Shown in pieces: positions 1 through 11,500 of a DNA stretch of 64,000 bases. The DNA comes from Rhodanobacter sp. GTDB lineage: Bacteria > Pseudomonadota > Gammaproteobacteria > Xanthomonadales > Rhodanobacteraceae. Below the pieces are notes generated by a model. The model saw only the letters and a list, made by a program, of their open reading frames with translations, was not told where the DNA came from and made no database searches. A program made the position numbers and the translations under genes. The stretch is taken from NCBI GenBank assembly GCA_030148505.1, contig JASBTI010000012.1, forward strand, positions 1-64,000. Reading direction: 5' to 3'. Positions within the stretch are counted from its first letter, which is position 1. The number at the start of each line of letters is the position of its first letter.

Positions 1-23
1 TTTGTTTTATTAAAACGCAACCC

Positions 24-83
24 GTCGGAGCGCACCGTGTGCGCGATCCAAACAAGACCATCGCGCACTGGGTGCGCTCCTAC
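24..83. repeat. REP-like inverted repeat, copy 1
   Basis: Two arms of about 24 bases, at 24-47 and 60-83, are imperfect reverse complements around the core GGAGCGCACC. A second, better preserved copy lies at 5306-5382. Both copies sit directly upstream of an A-type permease gene and are followed by the same leader (GGGGTATCTGG, then a T-rich run and GACGGGGGC), so repeat and leader seem to have been duplicated together. It is too large and lacks a terminal T-run for a simple terminator. Confidence 0.75.
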
Positions 84-120
84 AGGGGTATCTGGTTTTT
101 GTTGTTGACGGGGGCGCGTG

Positions 121-1425
121 ATGTTCGGCTATTACCTTGAACTGGCGTTGCGCAGCCTCAGGTGCAACAAGGTGTTGACCGCGCTGATGGTGCTGGCGAT
201 CGGACTGGGCATCGGTGCCAGCATGACGATGATCACGGTGTTGCACGTGATGACGGCCGATCCGTTGCCGGGGCGGAGCGTACAACTGTTTTATCCGCAA
301 ATCGATCCGCATGACATGGTGGGCTACGCTAAAAACAAGGCGCCGCCGGATCAGTTGACCTGGATCGATGCGATGAATCTGCTGCATGCCCGTCGTGCGG
401 TGCGTCAGGTGGCGATGACCGCGGGCCAGGTGGTGGTGCAGCCGACGCAGGGAAGTAGCCGTGCGTTCTTTGCCAGTGCGCGCTATACCTCGGCCGATTT
501 CTTCACGATGTTCGAGGTGCCTTTCGCCTACGGCAGCGGTTGGACGGCAGCGGATGACGCGCGGCAGGCACGTGTAGTGGTCATTGCGCGTGATCTTGCC
601 GACAAGCTTTACGGCGCGGATCACGCGGTCGGCAAGTCGCTGCGGCTTGGCAAGGATGTCTTCCGTGTGGTCGGGGTGATCGATCCGTGGCAGCCGGTGC
701 CGCGTTTCTACGACCTGACCCAGGGCAGCTATGCCAAGGTCGAGCAGGTATTCATGCCGCTGGAAACCGCGATGGCGCTGAAGCAGCCGACCGAAGGAAA
801 CTTCATGTGCTGGGGCGATCAGGCCCTCAACAACAAGGACATGGAGCGGGCCTCCTGCACCTGGATTCAGTTCTGGGCACAGCTGGATACGCCCGCCCAG
901 GTGGCGAGCTATCGCGATTATCTGGTGCATTACTCGCAGGAACAAAAAGCGCTGGGTCGTTTCCAGCGGCCGCCGAATGTCCGCTTGCACGATTTGATGG
1001 CTTGGCTTGACGTCAACCATGTGGTGCCGAGCAGCGTGCAGTTGCAGACACTGCTGGCGCTTGGCTTCATGCTGGTATGCCTGGTCAATACCGTGGCCTT
1101 GTTGCTGGTGAAGTTCTTGCGACGCGGCGCTGAACTGGGTATCCGCAGGGCAATGGGCGCTTCGAAGCGGTCGGTCTTCGCCCAGTTGCTGTTCGAGGCT
1201 TTTCTGGTGGGCTTGGCGGGTGGTGTTGTGGGCTTGCTGCTGACCCTCTCGGGGCTGTGGATTGTGCGTCAACAGCCCGTGCCATACGCGGGTTACGCCC
1301 ATCTGGATAGCGTGATGCTGGGGGCCACGGTAGTGCTTTCACTGTGCGCGACCTTGCTGGCCGCGCTGTTTCCCGCGTGGCGCGCCTGCCGCTTGCAGCC
1401 TGCCACCGTCTTGAAGATTCAGTGA
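121..1425 (+). CDS. FtsX/MacB-type ABC transporter permease (A1 of three A-B pairs)
   Basis: Inner-membrane permease of 434 residues. It has one N-terminal membrane segment (about 17-40), a large periplasmic MacB-like domain (about 45-300) and three C-terminal membrane segments (from about 305). The motif ELGIRRAMGASKRSV after the second helix is the coupling segment expected to contact an ATPase. An in-frame GTG lies at 118, but ATG 121 is preferred because the paralogue at 5418 starts with the same residues and GGGGG lies at ribosome-binding distance. It is 12 bases from the B-type permease at 1438, so the two probably form one complex. No ATPase gene is in the window; one may lie upstream of base 1. 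The substrate is unknown; the family usually handles lipids, peptides or antibiotics at the periplasmic side. Confidence 0.85.
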   Translation: MFGYYLELALRSLRCNKVLTALMVLAIGLGIGASMTMITVLHVMTADPLPGRSVQLFYPQIDPHDMVGYAKNKAPPDQLTWIDAMNLLHARRAVRQVAMTAGQVVVQPTQGSSRAFFASARYTSADFFTMFEVPFAYGSGWTAADDARQARVVVIARDLADKLYGADHAVGKSLRLGKDVFRVVGVIDPWQPVPRFYDLTQGSYAKVEQVFMPLETAMALKQPTEGNFMCWGDQALNNKDMERASCTWIQFWAQLDTPAQVASYRDYLVHYSQEQKALGRFQRPPNVRLHDLMAWLDVNHVVPSSVQLQTLLALGFMLVCLVNTVALLLVKFLRRGAELGIRRAMGASKRSVFAQLLFEAFLVGLAGGVVGLLLTLSGLWIVRQQPVPYAGYAHLDSVMLGATVVLSLCATLLAALFPAWRACRLQPATVLKIQ

Positions 1426-1437
1426 GGCAGGGACGTC

Positions 1438-2667
1438 ATGCATCCGATCATCTCAGCGCTGAAACACCACAAGACCGCCGTCATTCTGATGGTGCTGGAA
1501 ATCGCCTTGACCTGCGCCATCGTCAGCAATGCGATCTTCATCATTGGTGACCGCCTTGCCGCCATGCACGTGCAGACCGGCGTGGCGGACAACGAGCTGG
1601 TGTGGGCCAGAAGCAGCGGGCTGGATCAGGGGGCTAGCGCCGCCAGTGCCACCAGCCGTGCGCAAGCCGATCTGGCGGCACTGCGAACCATGCCGGGGGT
1701 GACTTCGGCAGTCATGGTGAACTCGCTGCCGCTCAGCAATATGAACTCATGGGGTGCCTGTGTACAGCATCGTCCGGGGCATACCAAGGACCAGGTTTGC
1801 AACGTGATCTTCTACGCAGGGACCCAGGGAACGGTCAAGACCCTCGGTATCAAGCTGGTGCAGGGGCGTGACTTTCTTCCACAGGAGTACGTCAACTACT
1901 TCCCGTTCGACAATATGCAGGCACCACCGGCGGTGATGGTTACGCGCTCGCTGGCAAATCGCCTGTGGCCAGGCAAGGATCCGCTGGGCCAGCCGCTTTT
2001 TCTCGGGGACAAGGCGGGCGACGTCACCCACGTAGTGGGCGTTGTGGGGCACCTGGTGAATCCCAGTATCAACAAATACAACGGCGTCGAACGCAACCTG
2101 TTGCTGCCGGTAACCGCCGCCGCCGTTAGGGGCGGCATGTATGCGCTGCGCACGGCGCCGGGCGCGCGCGACGCCACGTTGCGCGACCTGCCCAAGGTGC
2201 TCGACGGCGTCGATAGTCGTCGCATCATCACCGAACGCCACAGCTATGCGCAGACGGTGAAGGACTATTTTCACGATGACCGCGCCTTGATCTGGTTGCT
2301 GCTGCTGGTGATCGGCTGCCTGCTGGCCTTGTCCGCGTTGGGCGTGGTCGGATTGTCCAGCTTCTGGGTGCAGCAGCGCACGCATCAGATCGGCATTCGC
2401 CGCGCCATTGGTGCCACCCGGCGCGACATCATGTTGTATTTCCAGACCGAGAACTTCCTGATCGTCAGCGGCGGCATCGCACTGGGTTCGCTGTGTGCAG
2501 TGGTATTGAACCTGTTCCTGATGAAGCACTATGAACTGCCACGCCTGCCGTTGTCCTACCTGCCGATCGGCGCGCTGGTGCTGTGGGCCTTGGGCCAGCT
2601 GGCCGTACTCGGCCCCGCGCTGCGCGCCGCTGCCGTGCCACCGGTGGTGGCGACGCGGAGTGTGTGA
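1438..2667 (+). CDS. FtsX/MacB-type ABC transporter permease (B1)
   Basis: B-type partner of 409 residues with the same topology: N-terminal helix (about 14-36), periplasmic domain, and three C-terminal helices with coupling motif HQIGIRRAIGATRRD. It has a slightly smaller periplasmic domain than the A type. The last 76 residues are identical to those of the B3 protein ending at 7971, while the bodies are only moderately similar, which points to gene conversion. AGGGA precedes the ATG. Cotranscribed with the flanking permeases. Confidence 0.85.
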   Translation: MHPIISALKHHKTAVILMVLEIALTCAIVSNAIFIIGDRLAAMHVQTGVADNELVWARSSGLDQGASAASATSRAQADLAALRTMPGVTSAVMVNSLPLSNMNSWGACVQHRPGHTKDQVCNVIFYAGTQGTVKTLGIKLVQGRDFLPQEYVNYFPFDNMQAPPAVMVTRSLANRLWPGKDPLGQPLFLGDKAGDVTHVVGVVGHLVNPSINKYNGVERNLLLPVTAAAVRGGMYALRTAPGARDATLRDLPKVLDGVDSRRIITERHSYAQTVKDYFHDDRALIWLLLLVIGCLLALSALGVVGLSSFWVQQRTHQIGIRRAIGATRRDIMLYFQTENFLIVSGGIALGSLCAVVLNLFLMKHYELPRLPLSYLPIGALVLWALGQLAVLGPALRAAAVPPVVATRSV

Positions 2668-2698
2668 TGGGAGAGATCGGATGAGGAGCCATCACGAC

Positions 2699-4033
2699 AT
2701 GTTTCGCTACAACCTTGAACTGGCTTTGCGCGGCTTGCGCGGCTTTCCGAAAAGTACCGTGTTGGTGGTACTGACGGTGGCGCTGGGCCTGTCGGCCTGC
2801 ATGACCACGTTGGCGTTGTTGCACGTGCTGTCGGCCGATCCGCTGCCCGGGCGCAGTGAGCATTTGTATCTGGCGTGGGTGGATACGGTGTTGGCCAAGC
2901 CGTTCAATTATCAATCACTGAATGGTGTCACCCAGGCCAACTACAGGCGCATCAAGCTGGCCGATGCGCAGGCCTTGCTCGCGGCACATCGGGCGGTGCG
3001 GCAGGCGGTGGTGGCGGACATGGCCGCCGACGAGATATCGGCTGATGGCAAGCATGCACAGCGCTCGCAGCTGATTCTGGCGACCAGTGCCGATTTCGTA
3101 CCGATGTTCGGCGTGGCCTTGCGCTACGGGCGCAACTGGACCGCCGCCGAGGATGCTGCTCATGCGCCGGTGGTGTTGATCGACACCGAGCTGGCGCAGA
3201 AGCTGTTCGGCACCGTCAATGCCGTGGGGCGTCGGGTGCGCCTCCGAAACACCTTGTTTCAGGTGGTCGGCGTGATCGCTCCATATGCGCCGCAACCGCA
3301 TTTCTATGGCCTTGATTCCGGCGTATTCAGCAGCGACGGCGGGGAGAATCTCTACCTGCCTTATACCGCTGCGCTGGATGCCGGCCTGTCGCCGCGACGC
3401 GCCGATGGATGCGATGCGTCGTACAAGACGGCATCCCGGCTGGGCTTGTCCGACCCAACGCATTGCGCGTCGCTGGGCTTCTGGGTGCAACTGGATACAC
3501 CACAGCAGGTTGCCGCCTATCGCAGCTACCTGACGCACTACGTCGAGCAGCAGAAGGCGCTTTCCGGCTTCGGCAAACCGGCGACATCGCAGCTTTTCAG
3601 CGTGGCGCAATGGCTGAAGTTGCAGCATGTGGTTCCCGACAGTGTGCGCTTGAATGTGGGACTGGCGGGCGCGTTCCTGCTGTTGTGCATGTTGAATGTG
3701 GCCGGCCTGCTGGCGGCGCGCTTTCTGCATCGCAGCGGTGAAACGGGCATCCGTCGTGCGCTGGGTGCGCCACGCCGCGCGGTGTTTCAGCAATACCTGC
3801 TGGAGGCGGCGGCCGTCAGCATGCTTGGTGGCGTGCTGGCCTTGCCGCTGACCCTGCTGGGTCTGTGGATTTTGCGCCGGCAGGGCAGCGACTTTTCCGG
3901 TCTTGCTCGTCTCGACCCGCTGATGTTCGGTGGCCTGTTTGCCATGGCCTTGCTGGTCGGTGTGCTGGTCGGCCTGTTGCCGGCGTGGCGCGCCTCGGCT
4001 GTGGAGCCGGCATTGCAGGTCAAGAGCGCCTAG
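2699..4033 (+). CDS. FtsX/MacB-type ABC transporter permease (A2)
   Basis: A-type permease of 444 residues. It begins MFRYNLELALRGLRG, matching the starts of A1 and A3. I place the start at ATG 2699 because AGGAG lies at 2684-2688; an upstream in-frame ATG at 2681 would add six residues and overlaps that ribosome-binding site. N-terminal helix, periplasmic domain, coupling motif ETGIRRALGAPRRAV and three terminal helices are present. Compared with A1 it has a longer periplasmic insert with a Cys-containing loop around residues 230-260. It is 11 bases from B2. Confidence 0.83.
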   Translation: MFRYNLELALRGLRGFPKSTVLVVLTVALGLSACMTTLALLHVLSADPLPGRSEHLYLAWVDTVLAKPFNYQSLNGVTQANYRRIKLADAQALLAAHRAVRQAVVADMAADEISADGKHAQRSQLILATSADFVPMFGVALRYGRNWTAAEDAAHAPVVLIDTELAQKLFGTVNAVGRRVRLRNTLFQVVGVIAPYAPQPHFYGLDSGVFSSDGGENLYLPYTAALDAGLSPRRADGCDASYKTASRLGLSDPTHCASLGFWVQLDTPQQVAAYRSYLTHYVEQQKALSGFGKPATSQLFSVAQWLKLQHVVPDSVRLNVGLAGAFLLLCMLNVAGLLAARFLHRSGETGIRRALGAPRRAVFQQYLLEAAAVSMLGGVLALPLTLLGLWILRRQGSDFSGLARLDPLMFGGLFAMALLVGVLVGLLPAWRASAVEPALQVKSA

Positions 4034-4044
4034 GGAGGTCGAGC

Positions 4045-5292
4045 ATGTCCATTCGCATTCTGTTTTCCACCCTGCGCCGTCACAGCATGATGCCGGCGCT
4101 GGTCTTGCTGCAGGTGGCCGTGGCCTGCGCGATCCTGTGCAATGTGCTGTTCCTGGTATGGCAGCAGTTGCAGCCGATGCTCGCGCCCAGCGGCGTCGCC
4201 GGAAACCAGTTGATTCTGGTCGATCAGTTGGCGTCGCCGCAGCGAGCCTTCACCACTGCCGAGGTTCGCGGCGGTGAGGTAGCGCTACATGAGGTGCCTG
4301 GGGTGCGTGCTGCGACCGCGGCATTCGGTTTGCCGATGGTGGGGAGCAACCTCATGGATATCGCCTTGCAGGGACCGAATGGGGTGAAGGTGGGCGTGAA
4401 CGGCTATCTGGGCGCGGGACTGATCGATGTCCTGGGCTTGCAGCTGGTGGCCGGACGCGACTTTCTGCCGAGTGAATATCGTGATTTCGGGATCGGTGGC
4501 ACCCACGAGAAATGGAGTGCCGGCGGGCCACAGCCGATCATCATCACGCAGACCTTGGCAAAGCGACTATTCGCAAACGGTCGGGTGCTGGGCCAGCTGT
4601 TGACCGACCCCAGCGACAAGAATGATCTCGGTTACCAGGTGGTGGGGGTTGTGCGTCACCTGCTGCGCAACCAGTTGGGGCTGGCCACCAACGGTCGCGC
4701 AGACGACACGGTGCTGCTGGCAAGACGCATCGCCAGCACATCGACCCTGAGTTACGCGGTGCGCGTGGACCCGGCGCTGCGCAAGGCGGCGATTCGCGGT
4801 GTACGCAAGGTCATCCAGCAGCACTTCGGCGCCTTGCTGCCAACAGGTATCACCGCACGGGTGAGCAGCTACAGCAGCCGTCGCGAGGCGGCGTTCAAGA
4901 GCCAGCGTGCGGCCCTGGGGCTATTCGCCGGGATCACCCTGGCGGTGGTGGTGGTCACCGCGATCGGCATCATGGGGTTGACCGGATTCTGGGTGCAGAA
5001 GCGTACCCGGCAGATTGGCATCCGCCGCGCCCTCGGTGCGCGACGGGCGGATATCCTGCGTTACTTCCTCGCCGAGAACGCCCTGATTGTCAGCATCGGC
5101 GTCGCCATCGGCATGGCGTTGGCGTTGCTGGGCAACGCGCTGCTGATGCACTACTACGAGCTGTCCCGGTTGCCGTGGAGCTGGTTGCCAGTCGGCGCAG
5201 TGGTGATGCTGCTGCTTGGCCAGCTCGCCGTACTCGGCCCCGCACTGCGCGCAGCTGCCGTGCCACCGGTGGTGGCGACGCGGAGTGTGTGA
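4045..5292 (+). CDS. FtsX/MacB-type ABC transporter permease (B2)
   Basis: B-type permease of 415 residues beginning MSIRILFSTLRRHS; GGGAGG lies just upstream of ATG 4045. It has an N-terminal helix, a periplasmic domain, coupling motif RQIGIRRALGARRAD and three terminal helices. The last 24 residues are identical to those of B1 and B3, although the segment just before them differs, so the shared block is shorter here. A REP-like repeat and the leader of A3 follow. Confidence 0.83.
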   Translation: MSIRILFSTLRRHSMMPALVLLQVAVACAILCNVLFLVWQQLQPMLAPSGVAGNQLILVDQLASPQRAFTTAEVRGGEVALHEVPGVRAATAAFGLPMVGSNLMDIALQGPNGVKVGVNGYLGAGLIDVLGLQLVAGRDFLPSEYRDFGIGGTHEKWSAGGPQPIIITQTLAKRLFANGRVLGQLLTDPSDKNDLGYQVVGVVRHLLRNQLGLATNGRADDTVLLARRIASTSTLSYAVRVDPALRKAAIRGVRKVIQQHFGALLPTGITARVSSYSSRREAAFKSQRAALGLFAGITLAVVVVTAIGIMGLTGFWVQKRTRQIGIRRALGARRADILRYFLAENALIVSIGVAIGMALALLGNALLMHYYELSRLPWSWLPVGAVVMLLLGQLAVLGPALRAAAVPPVVATRSV

Positions 5293-5305
5293 TGAACAAG
5301 GAACC

Positions 5306-5382
5306 TGTAGGAGCGCACCCTGTGCGCGATTGCCCTTCGCGCGATGCAATCAAGAGCATCGCGCACAGGGTGCGCTCCTACA
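5306..5382. repeat. REP-like inverted repeat, copy 2 (perfect 25-bp arms)
   Basis: Arms at 5306-5330 and 5358-5382 are perfect 25-base reverse complements (outer end TGTAGGAGCGCACC) with a 27-base spacer. It lies between B2 and A3 and repeats the arrangement seen at 24-83. Such elements are typical interspersed repeats of Xanthomonadales and pseudomonads; here the RNA hairpin could also dampen read-through between the second and third permease pairs (inference). Confidence 0.85.
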
Positions 5383-5417
5383 GGGGTATCTGGTTTTGTT
5401 GTTGACGGGGGCACGTA

Positions 5418-6740
5418 ATGTTTGGTTACTACTTCGAACTGGCCGTGCGCAGCCTCAGGCGCAATCCGGTGCTGACGATCTTGATCGTCGCGCTGATCGG
5501 CGCGGGGGTGGCGTCGTCGATGGTCACGTTCGCCGCGCTGCGCGCGATGTCGGCGGATCCGATGCCGGGAAAATCGGCACAGCTGTATGAACCGCAGATT
5601 GACAACTGGGGGCCGGCGAATCCTGATGTGCATGGCGAGCCGCCGTTGACGCTCAGCTATATCGATGCCGAGGCGTTGCTGCACGCCCACGCCGCACCAC
5701 GCCAGACTGCGCTCTATCAGGTGGCCTTCTCGCTGGTACCGGCGGATGCGACGCGCGCGCCGTTTGCGGTGAAAGGGTATGCGGTGACGACTGATTTCTT
5801 TGCGATGTTCAACGTACCGATGGCGTACGGCGCAGGCTGGAGCGCGTTGGATGACGACAAGGGAACGGATGCCCTTGTGATCAGCCGGCGACTCAACGAC
5901 CGCTTGTTCGGCGGTACCGACAGCGTCGGTCGCGAAATTCGCCTGGATAATCACGACTACCGCGTGGTCGGTGTAGCCGGGGACTGGAATCCGCAGCCGC
6001 GCTTCTACGCGACCGGCAGTATCCATGTCACCACCGATCATGGCGATGCGCCGGATGTGTTCCTGCCTTTCACCCATGCAGTGGAACAGCAGATTGCAAC
6101 GGCGTGGGGCAATTACTGCCGCCCGGATTACAAGGGCATGGGCTGGGATGCCCTTCTGCACTCGGAATGTGTCTGGGTCGCTTTCTGGGTCGACCTGCCA
6201 ACGCCGGCCGATGCGTGGCACTACGCGAGCTTTCTGCACAACTATGCGGCCGCGCAACAGCGTATGGGGCGCTTCTCGTGGCCGCCGAACGTGCGTTTGC
6301 GCAACGTCCCGCAGTTGCTGGCTTACGTGCACGCCGTACCAGAACAGGTGCGGGTTTCGTTCCTGCTGGCGCTGGGTCTGCAACTGGTCTGCCTGGTCAA
6401 CATCATCGGTTTGCTGTTGGCGAAATTCATGCGCCGTAGCGTAGAGATCGGCGTGCGTCGCGCCCTGGGTGCCTCGCGCGGAGCGATCGGCCTGCAATTT
6501 TTGACCGAGGCCGCGATGGTGGGTGCCGTCGGGGGATTGCTCGGTTTGCTGCTGACGGGCATTGGCGTATACGGCATGGGTGCGCTGTTCACGCCGAAGA
6601 TCGCGCGACTCGTCCACGTCGACGCAGACCTGCTTGGCCTCACCTTGCTGGTGTCCATCGTGGCGACCGTGCTCGCCGCGCTCTATCCCACCTGGCGGGC
6701 GGCGCAGGTGCAGCCCGCCTGGCAACTGAAGTCGAACTGA
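5418..6740 (+). CDS. FtsX/MacB-type ABC transporter permease (A3)
   Basis: A-type permease of 440 residues starting MFGYYFELAVRSLRR, the closest relative of A1 at the N terminus. It has an N-terminal helix (about 18-40), a periplasmic MacB-like domain, coupling motif EIGVRRALGASRGAI and three terminal helices. The leader upstream of the ATG is nearly identical to that of A1, which supports duplication of the whole A-B unit including its 5' region. It is 10 bases from B3. Confidence 0.85.
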   Translation: MFGYYFELAVRSLRRNPVLTILIVALIGAGVASSMVTFAALRAMSADPMPGKSAQLYEPQIDNWGPANPDVHGEPPLTLSYIDAEALLHAHAAPRQTALYQVAFSLVPADATRAPFAVKGYAVTTDFFAMFNVPMAYGAGWSALDDDKGTDALVISRRLNDRLFGGTDSVGREIRLDNHDYRVVGVAGDWNPQPRFYATGSIHVTTDHGDAPDVFLPFTHAVEQQIATAWGNYCRPDYKGMGWDALLHSECVWVAFWVDLPTPADAWHYASFLHNYAAAQQRMGRFSWPPNVRLRNVPQLLAYVHAVPEQVRVSFLLALGLQLVCLVNIIGLLLAKFMRRSVEIGVRRALGASRGAIGLQFLTEAAMVGAVGGLLGLLLTGIGVYGMGALFTPKIARLVHVDADLLGLTLLVSIVATVLAALYPTWRAAQVQPAWQLKSN

Positions 6741-6750
6741 GGAGGCGAGC

Positions 6751-7971
6751 ATGCAGATCCGACTCATACTCGCCGCACTCAGGCATCACCGCGCTGCCAC
6801 CGTGCTGATCGTGTTGCAGATCGCGTTGACGCTGGCAATCGTGTGCAACGCGCTGTTTATCATCCAGCTGCGGCTGGCGCACATCGCGCGTCCCACCGGC
6901 ATCGACGAAGCGCACATCGTAGTGATCCAGAACCAGTGGATAGGCAAGCACGAGACGGCGCAGTTGAGTGCGCGACTGGCCACAGACCTCGCCGCGTTGC
7001 GCCAGTTGCCGGGCGTGGCCGATGCCTACGCCGACTACACCTACCCGGCGGGCGGGCCGTGGGCCGCGGTGTTACGCATTGGGCTCAAGCCGAATCAGCG
7101 AGCGCCGACATCGTTGGCGGAGGGTTATCAGGCCGATGACCACACGCTGTCGACGCTGGGTTTGCAACTGGTCGCCGGGCGCAACTTCCGGCCGGACGAA
7201 ATCGTTGCGGGAAGCGTCGATGACGCATTGGCGCCGCCGGTCATTATCGTCACCCGTGACCTCGCCGAACGGATGTTTCCGCATCAATCGGCGGTGGGCA
7301 AGCGGGTCTACATCAGCGACAAGCCCAGCACCATCATCGGCGTCGTCCGCCACCTGGAGGTGCCGGCCGTGGGCACGCACAGCTTTGCCTACTGCTCGGT
7401 ACTGCTACCGTCCTGGCCGGTGTGGCCGTATGGGAGCTTTTATGTGCTGCGCGCCAAACCGGGCCAGCTTGATGCGGTGATGCGTGCCGCCCCGAAGGCG
7501 CTGCTGGCCATCAATCGCATGCGGGTGATGGATGGTGGTGCGAAACGCTACGGCGACCTGCGCGCCGCAGTCTATGCGGATGATCGTGGCGTGACCTTGC
7601 TCATGAGTATGATCTGCGTGGTGCTGCTGCTCGCCACGGTGGGCGGTATCGGTGGCCTGACCAGCTTCTGGGTCGGTCAGCGGCGCAGGCAGATCGGCAT
7701 ACGTCGTGCGCTGGGCGCCACCCGCGGCGAGATTCTGCGTTACTTCCAGACCGAGAACTTCCTGATCGTCAGCGGCGGCATCGCACTGGGTTCGCTGTGT
7801 GCCGTGGTATTGAACCTGTTCCTGATGAAGCACTACGAACTGCCACGATTGCCATTGTCCTACCTGCCGATCGGCGCGCTGGTGCTATGGGCCTTGGGTC
7901 AACTGGCGGTGCTCGGCCCCGCGCTGCGCGCCGCTGCCGTGCCACCGGTGGTGGCGACGCGGAGCGTGTGA
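6751..7971 (+). CDS. FtsX/MacB-type ABC transporter permease (B3)
   Basis: B-type permease of 406 residues starting MQIRLILAALRHHR; GAGGAGG lies eight bases before the ATG. Topology as in B1 and B2, coupling motif RQIGIRRALGATRGE. The 3' 225 bases differ from those of B1 at only about ten positions, most of them silent. It is the last gene of the permease array; the regulator gene at 8131 follows after about 160 bases. Confidence 0.85.
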   Translation: MQIRLILAALRHHRAATVLIVLQIALTLAIVCNALFIIQLRLAHIARPTGIDEAHIVVIQNQWIGKHETAQLSARLATDLAALRQLPGVADAYADYTYPAGGPWAAVLRIGLKPNQRAPTSLAEGYQADDHTLSTLGLQLVAGRNFRPDEIVAGSVDDALAPPVIIVTRDLAERMFPHQSAVGKRVYISDKPSTIIGVVRHLEVPAVGTHSFAYCSVLLPSWPVWPYGSFYVLRAKPGQLDAVMRAAPKALLAINRMRVMDGGAKRYGDLRAAVYADDRGVTLLMSMICVVLLLATVGGIGGLTSFWVGQRRRQIGIRRALGATRGEILRYFQTENFLIVSGGIALGSLCAVVLNLFLMKHYELPRLPLSYLPIGALVLWALGQLAVLGPALRAAAVPPVVATRSV

Positions 7972-8130
7972 TGCGACGATGTCAGGTAGGCGCATGGCGG
8001 TAGTCATGGCGGCCCGTACGGGCCGGGTTGCCCCTGTGGCGGCGTTATCACTCGGTGGTGTATCGACATACACTCCTTCACTCTTCCTTGCCCTGCGGTC
8101 AACCCGATCCCGGCGCGAGGTGCTCGGGAT

Positions 8131-9489
<1,359 letters not shown>

Positions 9490-9750: not shown

Positions 9751-10083
9751 ATGCGATATCGACTTTTTGTACTGCTTCCCGCGTTGTGGCTGGCGGCAGT
9801 CGCCACAGCGCAAACGGTGCCTGCGCCTTCGGCAGGAGATAGGCTGCGTCTGACGCTGCCGCCGGGCATGGCGCCGTTGCCGACTGACAAGACTACGGTG
9901 GGGGCCGGGAACAGGCGGGCCATCCACTTCAGGTTCAATGCCGGCAAACGTAGCAATCTGCTGCAGCGGCCACCACCACGACCGATGGACCAGGCCGTGG
10001 TGATGGGCAAGCAGCGCCCGTGGTTGGCTGGAAAACCGCCGGTAAACTGTGCGTTCACGCCGATGGATCCCTTGTGCCGTTGA
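9751..10083 (+). CDS. Small secreted protein of unknown function
   Basis: 110 residues starting MRYRLFVLLPALWLAAVATAQ, a clear signal peptide with probable cleavage after ATA. The mature part is basic and proline-rich, with two cysteines near the C terminus (NCAFTPMDPLC). GGAGGA precedes ATG 9751 at good spacing. It sits between the response regulator and the sensor kinase, so it may take part in signal perception, but no known domain is recognised. The 261 bases before it hold nothing I can call. Confidence 0.55.
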   Translation: MRYRLFVLLPALWLAAVATAQTVPAPSAGDRLRLTLPPGMAPLPTDKTTVGAGNRRAIHFRFNAGKRSNLLQRPPPRPMDQAVVMGKQRPWLAGKPPVNCAFTPMDPLCR

Positions 10084-10114
10084 GACCCTGCTGTTTGCGA
10101 ACGGGGGATGCGCC

Positions 10115-11500
10115 ATGTGGCGTCGACTGAATTCGCTGCATCTGCGCCTGACCTTGCTGCTGCTGCTGGCGGGCGTGGCGGGTGCGTTGATTTACGCCGG
10201 GGTCAGCCAATGGCCGTTGCCGCAGCTGTTGCGCTGGCTGCATACGGATCTGGCGCTGACCGTCCGTGCACCGATGCAGGTAGGCATCTACGGTGGCCTG
10301 CTGGCCAGTTTGATCGTCTTGCTGCCGCTGGCGTTCTGGCTTGCCGGTCGCGCGATGGCGCCGGTCAGCCGACTGTTGCGGGCGCTGGAAGGCGCTGTGG
10401 CCAGCTACCGCGACGGCGATTTCAGTTTCTCGATTGCCATCGATCGGGGTGACGAGCTGGGTCGCCTGATTCGCATGCACAACGCACTGGGACACACCTT
10501 GCGCGAACAGCGTCAGCATCTCGTGCAGCGCGAATTGCTGCTGGACACGGTGGTGCAGAATACGCCGGTGGCGCTGGTGCTTACCGATGCAGCAGGTCGG
10601 GTGGCCTACGCCAATATCGCCTCCAGGCACCTGTTCAACGAGGGGCGCAGTCTGCACGGCCTGGATTTTTCCGCGCTGCTGGCGGTGGCACCGGAGGCCT
10701 TGCGCAAGGCGGTGGAAAGTGGCGAGGATGCGTTGCTGAGTGTGGAGATGGATGGCAGCGAGGAAACCTTCCACCTGTCGCAGCGGGCGTTTCGTCTACA
10801 GGGCCGGCCACACCGCCTGCAGCTGTTTCGGCGCATGACCCGCGAATTGTCGCGACAAGAGGTGGCGATCTGGAAGCGGGTGATCCGGGTGATCAGCCAT
10901 GAGCTCAACAACTCACTGGCACCGATTTCCTCGCTGGCACATTCCGGTGCCGAACTGGCGCGCCGTGGCGAAATCGAACGGCTGCCCGGCGTCTTCGCCA
11001 CCATCGGCGAGCGGGCGCGGCATCTGCACGATTTCATCGCCGGCTATGCCAGTTTCGCCAAGCTGCCGGCGCCACAATCGAAGATGATCGCTTGGGCACC
11101 GTTTCTCGAGGGGCTGGCCCTGCATTGCCGCTACCGTCTGGCCACCACGTTGCCGGAGCGACCTGGCCGCTTCGATGCGGCGCAGATCGAGCAGGTGTTG
11201 ATCAACCTGATCAAGAATGCGCACGAGTCCGGCAGCGCCGATGACGATGTCACCTTGTCGATTGTGCAGGATGGCCGCGAACTGCGTATCGAGGTAGTCG
11301 ATCGTGGCCCCGGCATGAGCGACGCCGTGCTGGCGCAGGCGTTGCTGCCCTTCTATTCGACCAAGCGCTCCGGCACCGGGCTGGGGCTGGCGCTGGCGCG
11401 TGAGATCGTCGAGGCGCACGGTGGACGGGTGCTGTTGGCCAACCGTGAGGGTGGCGGCTTGCGGGTGAGCCTGGTGCTGCCGCAAACCACGGCTCGCTGA
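10115..11500 (+). CDS. NtrY-like sensor histidine kinase
   Basis: 461-residue membrane kinase. Two membrane segments (about 10-32 and 55-78) are followed by a HAMP-like linker (79-130), a PAS domain (about 140-230) and a dimerisation domain with phosphoacceptor H262 in VISHELNNSLAP. The ATPase domain shows the N box (INLIKNAHESG), G1 (DRGPGMSD) and G2 (GTGLGLAL). The periplasmic loop between the helices is only about 20 residues, so sensing is probably within the membrane or through a partner. ATG 10115 is chosen because GGGGGA precedes it. Likely partner of the regulator at 8131. Confidence 0.9.
   Translation: MWRRLNSLHLRLTLLLLLAGVAGALIYAGVSQWPLPQLLRWLHTDLALTVRAPMQVGIYGGLLASLIVLLPLAFWLAGRAMAPVSRLLRALEGAVASYRDGDFSFSIAIDRGDELGRLIRMHNALGHTLREQRQHLVQRELLLDTVVQNTPVALVLTDAAGRVAYANIASRHLFNEGRSLHGLDFSALLAVAPEALRKAVESGEDALLSVEMDGSEETFHLSQRAFRLQGRPHRLQLFRRMTRELSRQEVAIWKRVIRVISHELNNSLAPISSLAHSGAELARRGEIERLPGVFATIGERARHLHDFIAGYASFAKLPAPQSKMIAWAPFLEGLALHCRYRLATTLPERPGRFDAAQIEQVLINLIKNAHESGSADDDVTLSIVQDGRELRIEVVDRGPGMSDAVLAQALLPFYSTKRSGTGLGLALAREIVEAHGGRVLLANREGGGLRVSLVLPQTTAR

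Follow-up and report, generated by a model that had tools for sequence, protein, structure and literature searches.

The stretch of Rhodanobacter sp. DNA analysed here, hereafter the window, comprises the 64,000 nucleotides (nt) at positions 1 to 64,000 of contig JASBTI010000012.1 (here C41; assembly GCA_030148505.1) and opens with six FtsX-type permease genes (121-7971) that alternate between two related types, A and B. The simplest reading of these genes is that they are the last three pairs, numbers 5, 6 and 7, of a locus with the order adaptor-ATPase-(A-B)x7-NtrC regulator-histidine kinase, the upstream half of which lies on another contig, C9. It is probable that this locus specifies a system in which several alternative heterodimers of the MacB fold draw on one motor and one adaptor and are induced, together with small membrane peptides, through a nearly sensor-less kinase. 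The evidence that carries this reading comes from gene content, copy number, the co-inheritance of A and B, the predicted fold of the permeases, purifying selection, and a promoter-like module common to the transporter and the peptide genes.

All six open reading frames (ORFs) are intact, lie on the plus strand and encode proteins of 406-444 amino acids (aa), in agreement with a previous reading of the same DNA from its letters alone (the sequence-only reading). Pair 5 consists of an A gene at 121-1425 (434 aa) and a B gene at 1438-2667 (409 aa), pair 6 of genes at 2699-4033 (444 aa) and 4045-5292 (415 aa), and pair 7 of genes at 5418-6740 (440 aa) and 6751-7971 (406 aa). The gaps from A to B measure 12, 11 and 10 nt, respectively, as close as had been remarked. 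Each protein carries MacB_PCD and FtsX domains above the Pfam cut-offs, and all six belong to the MacB superfamily (type VII ATP-binding cassette [ABC] transporters). Identities across the seven-pair array (37-61% among A proteins, 35-57% among B proteins, and 22-33% between A and B) bear out the division into two related types. AlphaFold models of pair 5, which had predicted local distance difference test (pLDDT) scores of 80.8 for A5 and 89.0 for B5, both found MacB (5gko) as their best match in the PDB (E 5.5e-19 and 8.5e-19), followed by matches that include LolCDE, HrtBA, YbbAP, and BceAB. In alignments of 34 of 158 A sequences and 34 of 135 B sequences, each with the window protein added, a cytoplasmic motif, E/QIGxRRAxGA, is nearly invariant in both types; it lies where type VII permeases meet their ATPase. 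The A proteins also have an invariant periplasmic Cys pair, C230 and C246 (35 sequences).

Previously, the array was described as being without an ATPase, and a single ATPase and adaptor were suspected upstream. The window begins with the first base of contig C41; whatever lies upstream in the locus falls outside it, and the apparent absence results from the contig break. Searching the whole genome for FtsX domains returned 26 matches, including a second run of eight near the last bases of contig C9. Following the sequence upstream, as had been proposed, located there a HlyD/MacA-type adaptor (C9:56740-58011), which scores 134.7 bits against an RND_mfp cut-off of 94.9, then a LolD/MacB-type ABC ATPase encoded by a separate ORF (C9:58062-58784), and then four A-B pairs. 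At the other end, the array is closed by a gene for an NtrC-type response regulator (8131-9489, plus strand), which contains a receiver domain, a sigma-54 AAA+ domain (Sigma54_activat), and a Fis-type helix-turn-helix (HTH_8). A sensor histidine kinase gene follows (10049-11500, plus strand), the product of which has a HATPase_c domain above the Pfam cut-off, a HAMP domain just below it, and hydrophobic segments with a short loop; by our reading, its translation probably starts at the ATG near 10115. The C9 and C41 halves match loci of the genus in which both ends are present: these begin with adaptor and ATPase and finish with regulator and kinase.

The contig ends themselves point to the same join. 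The end of C9 aligns with the contig start and pair-5 leader (1-120, plus strand), which contains a repetitive extragenic palindrome (REP), over 109 columns, 82 of which are identical (75%). Both ends are without the same 15 nt that are present in the pair-7 leader (5293-5417, plus strand), in which the REP hairpin has 27-nt arms (5304-5330 and 5358-5384). From this alignment and the common 15-nt deletion, positions 1-120 probably mark the junction to the upstream half of the locus. The many base differences between the two ends may be of the kind that contigs ending in a REP hairpin show.

Arrays of this organization are widespread in the genus. An ATPase with at least 93% identity along almost its entire length occurs in 40 of 45 Rhodanobacter genomes, including the one studied here; 40 loci were retrieved, and 17 of these were extended. 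Among the 32 loci spanning ATPase to regulator, which include our genome with its two contigs joined, 26 have equal and unbroken numbers of A and B genes. The unbroken arrays contain two to nine pairs in strict alternation (two in genome G021, three in G008, and nine in G025 and G027). The adaptor precedes the ATPase in most loci where that stretch is present, and the regulator follows directly after the last pair in the 32 loci, with the kinase adjoining wherever the stretch continues; the same arrangement is found in loci with one pair. Such one-pair loci predominate in a wider set of 80 named loci. The regulator is reached in 42 of these, of which 39 contain a single A-B pair (with B split in L168), among them loci of Solimonas, Roseateles, Lysobacter, Arenimonas, Duganella, and Massilia; the other three have more, namely two pairs in Luteibacter sp. 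Sphag1AF and three in each of two Stenotrophomonas species. The remaining 38 stop short of the regulator; among them, wherever the available sequence is long enough, about three or four pairs can be counted in Rhodanobacter, Dyella, Frateuria, Oleiagrimonas, two more Stenotrophomonas, and Luteimonas huabeiensis. This comparison of array size leaves aside same-family genomes with a more distant ATPase type. Since A and B are equal in number in the arrays and most distant loci have a single pair, the pair is the unit of amplification, and the earlier suggestion of a tandemly repeated two-permease unit, probably a heterodimer, is strengthened by these counts and by the distance correlation described below.

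Several loci depart from this pattern in ways that are recorded here in their own right. Multi-pair arrays outside Rhodanobacteraceae (L150, L153, L159, and L167 in Stenotrophomonas and L152 in Luteimonas huabeiensis) have neighbours that mostly carry one pair, and their pairs are scattered on the tree, possibly through independent expansion or cassette transfer. In G024, the array ends in a truncated B with no regulator in the stretch examined, and it stands outside the 32 loci. A head-to-head arrangement of two ATPase genes is seen in L117 (Rhodanobacter sp. C06) and in G189 (C44:90265-91790), reflecting either an inverted duplication or an assembly artefact; in L117, each of the two ATPase genes is followed by its own A-B array, and the adaptor was not detected.

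The two members of a pair have diverged together. For 196 complete pairs from 38 genomes, the between-genome distances of A and of B correlate with r=0.944, while shuffling B within genomes gave a correlation of 0.024 +/- 0.015, with a maximum of 0.090 in 500 shuffles. In 5695 of 6472 comparisons, the A and B proteins that matched best in another genome came from one and the same pair. So tight a correlation identifies the pair as an inherited unit, and this co-inheritance fits, though it falls short of proving, an obligate heterodimer. All 196 A proteins and 195 of the 196 B proteins have their nearest relative in a different genome, and pair order is largely conserved across species (1849 concordant and 157 discordant comparisons). 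The median ratio of non-synonymous to synonymous substitution (dN/dS) is 0.13 for A (n=174) and 0.15 for B (n=179), and no value reaches 1, as expected of purifying selection.

The tree and the copy-number comparison that had been proposed as checks agree with these results. A tree of A and B proteins from 37 of the 80 named loci and 18 Rhodanobacter genomes, in which some deep nodes are weakly supported and type labels were set by a distance cut-off, places the window pairs on three separate branches as types g (pair 5), i (pair 6), and k (pair 7). The sequence-only reading had held that a single unit was copied twice, giving three. With seven pairs in the array, separate branches for the window pairs, a largely conserved pair order, and nearest neighbours in other genomes, a recent triplication is rejected; judged from these comparisons, the pair types are old and have largely kept their order.

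Some likeness between neighbouring pairs is nevertheless present at their edges. The last 287 nt of the pair-5 B region (2386-2672, plus strand) are 90% identical in DNA to 7690-7976 in pair 7 and 72% identical to 5011-5297, which amounts to local sequence sharing at a cassette edge. Such sharing is rare overall, occurring in at most 5 of 467 same-genome comparisons per alignment window versus 45 of 15744 other-genome comparisons, and it is found towards the beginning of A genes and in the C-terminal region of B, with one further case in A. These positions hint weakly at recombination at the edges of cassettes. A further possibility, concerted evolution of the permeases as a whole, was not seen. 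The near identity claimed previously for the leaders of the first and third A genes is upheld with a qualification. The leaders of the permeases at 121 and 5418 have in common an exact 28-mer that is unique in the genome within 3 mismatches, and leader plus gene start are 77-81% identical. The palindromic core, however, is a REP element with dozens of copies scattered through the genome, so that this part of the leader is not specific to these genes and is rejected as a mark of duplication. The leaders of pairs 3 and 4 (C9:64152-64283 and C9:66826-66945; L021) carry a different palindromic repeat of the GTAGGGTGGGC type, unlike the REP of pairs 2, 5, and 7.

The periplasmic domains were reported earlier to have diverged more than the membrane parts, as if each pair recognised a different ligand. 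The difference itself is confirmed: between pair types, amino acid distances rise to about 0.75 in periplasmic segments, compared with 0.25-0.55 in membrane segments. Between orthologues, the periplasmic segments are also the fastest (0.28-0.46 versus 0.09-0.28), and the ratio of paralogue to orthologue divergence is consequently no higher there. The divergence therefore reflects fast evolution generally and is weak evidence for different ligands.

A putative regulatory module connects the array to genes elsewhere in the genome. The adaptor leader of our genome contains a sigma-54-type -24/-12 box, TTGGCACGTGGATTGCA, preceded by the palindrome TGTCCGCGGACA. Among 75 adaptor leaders examined in the named loci, the exact palindrome occurs in 45, and at a distance of 60-100 nt downstream of it 41 of these leaders carry a TGG-N10-GC box, for which a spacing of 78 is the commonest (23 counts); a strict sigma-54 pattern was found in 37 of the 75. 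All 28 leaders examined from the 30 loci closest to the query (L096-L125) carry the exact palindrome. The 1.5 Mb of the named loci contain 48 exact copies, our genome has it at only two places, and at least one copy is present in 43 of 45 genomes of the genus, compared with 8 of 45 for a reversed-pattern control. Among the matches listed for G001-G027, together with the two sites in our genome, there are 77 exact palindromes (28 genomes): 37 lie 126-145 nt before a peptide match, 26 lie before the adaptor, with one more on the contig preceding a split locus, and 13 are elsewhere. The last group, before neither an array nor a recognised peptide (e.g., L201, L203, L205), includes one in L205 with a good sigma-54 box before an ORF that reads as alpha/beta-hydrolase-like and one in L201 with a weaker box before an ORF that reads as peptidase-like.

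Taken together, the domains of the regulator and a -24/-12 box with an upstream palindrome are what would be expected of an NtrC-type sigma-54 activator and its regulon, and linkage and regulator type suggest that the array regulator acts on the palindrome module. By simple hydropathy, at most 32 residues separate the first two hydrophobic segments in the 11 kinases, of 14, in which two such segments were found. A loop of this length is unlikely to carry a folded sensor, which gives the kinase the Bce-type character of having no extracytoplasmic sensor domain, and with almost no periplasmic domain, its signal is probably read in or near the membrane.

The second palindrome of our genome (C34:112169) points away from a divergent M16 peptidase gene and into a small ORF for a 66-aa peptide (C34:111848-112042, minus strand; L177/L178), with a sigma-54 box. 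This arrangement of palindrome, box, and small ORF recurs across genomes, and the encoded peptides form an unnamed family with lengths of 27-73 residues. In 15 aligned members, M1, K2, E4, L8, L11, F12, C15, L21, G24, A25, and M26 are invariant within a hydrophobic N-terminal segment; the tail is variable and often has two Cys, in many members as C-x-L-P-x-D-G-x-x-C. Over the whole length, non-synonymous change is lower than synonymous change in 105 of 105 comparisons, and the proportion of non-synonymous differences (pN) is 0.21 in residues 1-28 versus 0.43 in the tail. In Pfam and NCBIfam, the peptides had no match below E 0.008; the best was at E 0.0084, each such match involving one of the 15 members. 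Twenty loci picked for their peptide matches, 19 from 12 other genera and one from Rhodanobacter (L260), have a sigma-54 box before the peptide genes in all 20 cases and the palindrome (TGTCCNNGGACA) in 19. Peptide genes are in tandem in 11 of the 20, and in three of these (L241, L246, L257) the first peptide is only 27-29 aa long, with little beyond a membrane span.

Peptides of this family occur in 40 of 45 Rhodanobacter genomes, a few of which (e.g., G021 and G028) gave no more than weak or interrupted matches, and in 150 of 397 relatives, 147 of which belong to the same bacterial family. Within that bacterial family, a strong match was obtained for 134 of the 159 genomes that have the close ATPase type, for 0 of the 50 that have the more distant type (with 6 marginal matches), and for 7 of the 24 that lack an ATPase match, an association that follows lineages and is given in counts uncorrected for relatedness. 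The 25 close-ATPase genomes without a peptide match include Rhodanobacter G020, G030, and G032. No strong match was found in the 71 genomes of other families of the order that have this ATPase (E<=1e-95).

Each part of the system belongs to a known superfamily, and comparison with described systems shows where the whole differs. The predicted A5/B5 fold, the periplasmic core domain, and an RND_mfp/MacA-type adaptor are shared with MacAB-TolC (MacB, type VII), whereas here the ATPase is separate, the permease consists of two proteins in several alternative pairs, and the regulator is of the NtrC/sigma-54 type. Scores against MacB sensu stricto (PRK10535, cut-off 966) are 26-60 bits for the permeases and 211 for the ATPase, on separate ORFs. 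LolCDE, according to PMC5985334, likewise has a separate ATPase and two different four-helix permeases, but the present locus has an adaptor and multiple pairs, and its proteins score below the Lol cut-offs (permeases at most 28 of 362 bits for TIGR02212; ATPase 216 of 308 for TIGR02211, LolD). The window A proteins align to positions ~4-401 and the B proteins to positions ~411-801 of the 803-position ADOP model TIGR03434, so that A plus B correspond to a split version of the two-domain ADOP layout, at 145-197 bits each against a cut-off of 622. The name ADOP stands for orphan permeases; here, an ATPase and an adaptor accompany the modules, which are divided between two proteins. The darobactin exporter DarBCD supplies the best-scoring ATPase model, DarD (254 bits, equivalog cut-off 375), and one of the matching adaptor models, DarC (83.5 bits, cut-off 450). 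SmaCDEF (smlt1651-4) of Stenotrophomonas maltophilia, a related genus, is, according to PMC12189255 and PMC11356428, an ABC efflux pump of four locus tags linked to levofloxacin, and it is compared here by description. The HlyD/MacA-type adaptor in the operon suggests a tripartite ABC exporter, which would work with an outer-membrane channel.

Membership in a defence system was also considered and rejected. In PADLOC, the best ATPase match was mad3 (E 7.9e-31), taken as generic ATPase similarity, the A5 matches were weak, and B5, the adaptor, and the peptide had none. Among the papers listed by searches of the open-licence PMC literature, none was recognised as describing the array or the peptides, nor was the combination of a variable heterodimer-cassette array, a sigma-54 module, and an unnamed peptide family found there.

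In the mechanism that we propose, the single adaptor and ATPase on C9 would be the common motor for all seven pairs, and each pair would assemble into an alternative four-plus-four-helix heterodimeric permease, docking on the same ATPase through the conserved cytoplasmic motif and reaching the same adaptor with its own fast-evolving periplasmic domain. Substrates, which may be peptides or antimicrobials, would pass to an outer-membrane channel. Each pair would behave as an evolutionary cassette, with old cassette types gained, lost, and mostly kept in order. The regulator would turn on the operon from its sigma-54 promoter via the TGTCCGCGGACA site about 78 nt upstream and would also turn on the separate genes for small membrane peptides, while the kinase would respond to a signal in or near the membrane, for example working permeases or the peptides, as in Bce modules; by that analogy, it plausibly reads either the permease state, as BceS does, or the peptides.

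A number of results weigh against this picture. No exact end overlap of at least 8 bases was found between C9 and C41, and their join rests on the imperfect overlap. Six of the 32 loci depart from equal, unbroken pairs: genes are broken in G001, G015, and G020, one B too many is present in G013 and G016, and the G018 locus belongs to an ATPase with 55% identity. Some pairs therefore decay, as is probably the case in the arrays of G001, G013, G015, G016, G020, and G024, which have broken genes or two consecutive B. Our genome encodes three further ATPases at 50-53% identity, each in another locus, which could serve a pair in trans. The exact palindrome is absent from 30 of 75 adaptor leaders, and the composite of palindrome and sigma-54 pattern was found in 0 of 10 genomes of a genus with the more distant ATPase type. 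The idea of one peptide per pair was dropped, as G061 of genus g18 has one pair and 2 matches, and other g18 genomes have up to 7.

Other explanations account for parts of these data. The array might act as a BceAB-BceRS-like module for detoxification and sensing, in which the pairs act at the inner membrane, binding envelope-active antimicrobial peptides or removing them without TolC export, the minimal-loop kinase reads transporter activity, and more pairs give a broader resistance spectrum. We regard this as possible but somewhat doubtful. The position of regulator and kinase next to the last pair in both genus and one-pair loci, the short kinase loop, flanks that resemble housekeeping genes rather than a biosynthetic cluster, and the M16 peptidase divergent from the peptide gene are all in keeping with it, and BceB-BceS sensing by an FtsX-type permease tied to a two-component system with a short-loop kinase is described in PMC5985334. 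The same text presents BceB as a single ten-helix permease, unlike the A-B pairs here, and the adaptor in the locus points to a tripartite exporter. The regulator, moreover, is of the NtrC/sigma-54 kind; Bce modules are not known to have an adaptor or a sigma-54 regulator. An ordinary recent tandem triplication of one pair, its relaxed copies heading to loss, could draw on the B5/B7 identity, the alike leaders of pairs 5 and 7, and the broken copies in some arrays. It is highly improbable in view of the separate branches, conserved order, low dN/dS, and neighbours that are almost never from the same genome; local sharing, with one exception, is limited to the beginning of A and the C-terminal region of B.

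The peptides invite two accounts. The array could be dedicated to their secretion, the conserved N-terminus being a leader and the variable Cys tail the product, and this account takes in the common palindrome and sigma-54 module, the co-occurrence with the close ATPase type, and the contrast between N-terminus and tail. It seems unlikely to us, because some members consist of a hydrophobic segment without a tail, peptide number does not track pair number, and strong peptide matches are missing from the ATPase-bearing genomes of the order's other families. The peptides could instead cross the membrane once and, as small proteins bound to the permeases or to the kinase, adjust their activity, much as the small membrane proteins AcrZ, MgrB, and KdpF tune their partners. 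Residue conservation in the hydrophobic segment, the lower pN there, and the existence of 27-29 aa members speak for such a role, and these short members together with the conserved hydrophobic segment favour a membrane partner over a secreted product; the two-Cys tail kept in many members speaks against it and leaves cargo or signal as possible functions, and the partner is only postulated. A tuning role is thus a substantial possibility that stops short of being probable.

The surroundings of the array and its relatives in our genome complete the description. Upstream on C9 lie lpd-like and aldo-keto reductase-like ORFs, and downstream of the array are stomatin-like and prolyl-tRNA synthetase-like ORFs, all named by our own reading of the sequence. 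Outside C9 and C41, the A and B models match only relatives in other loci, which are fused or low-scoring permeases on C3, C10, and C12 and a single B-like fragment on C12. A paralogous one-copy system on C3 (C3:25000-36000; L024) has adaptor, ATPase (53%), fused permease, regulator, and kinase in the same order, its permease being one 892-aa ORF in which A- and B-like halves are joined. Fused permease ORFs with two FtsX modules (824-852 aa) also occur on C12 (C12:107419-112433; L022), with ATPases at 50-52% near them, and on C41 (C41:196087-197775). An orphan B-type C-terminal fragment at about C12:69620-70219 (minus strand; L023; 162 bits, model positions 211-405, 214-aa open frame) is probably a remnant.

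ABC exporters are usually viewed as complexes of unchanging composition, each with one motor and one permease set. In these soil-dwelling Rhodanobacter, the one ATPase hardly varies and is followed by two to nine alternative pairs, and we tentatively entertain, as an interpretation that may well hold without yet being the probable one, a modular envelope system of two to nine heritable heterodimer cassettes, each a different receptor or exporter on one motor and adaptor, with a sensor-less kinase and peptides that serve as tuning subunits, signal, or cargo. The tight co-divergence of A and B makes the array a natural experiment in pairing rules, ATPase coupling, and periplasmic-domain specificity, and the promoter module that links the pump to a peptide family offers a handle on the question of its substrate.

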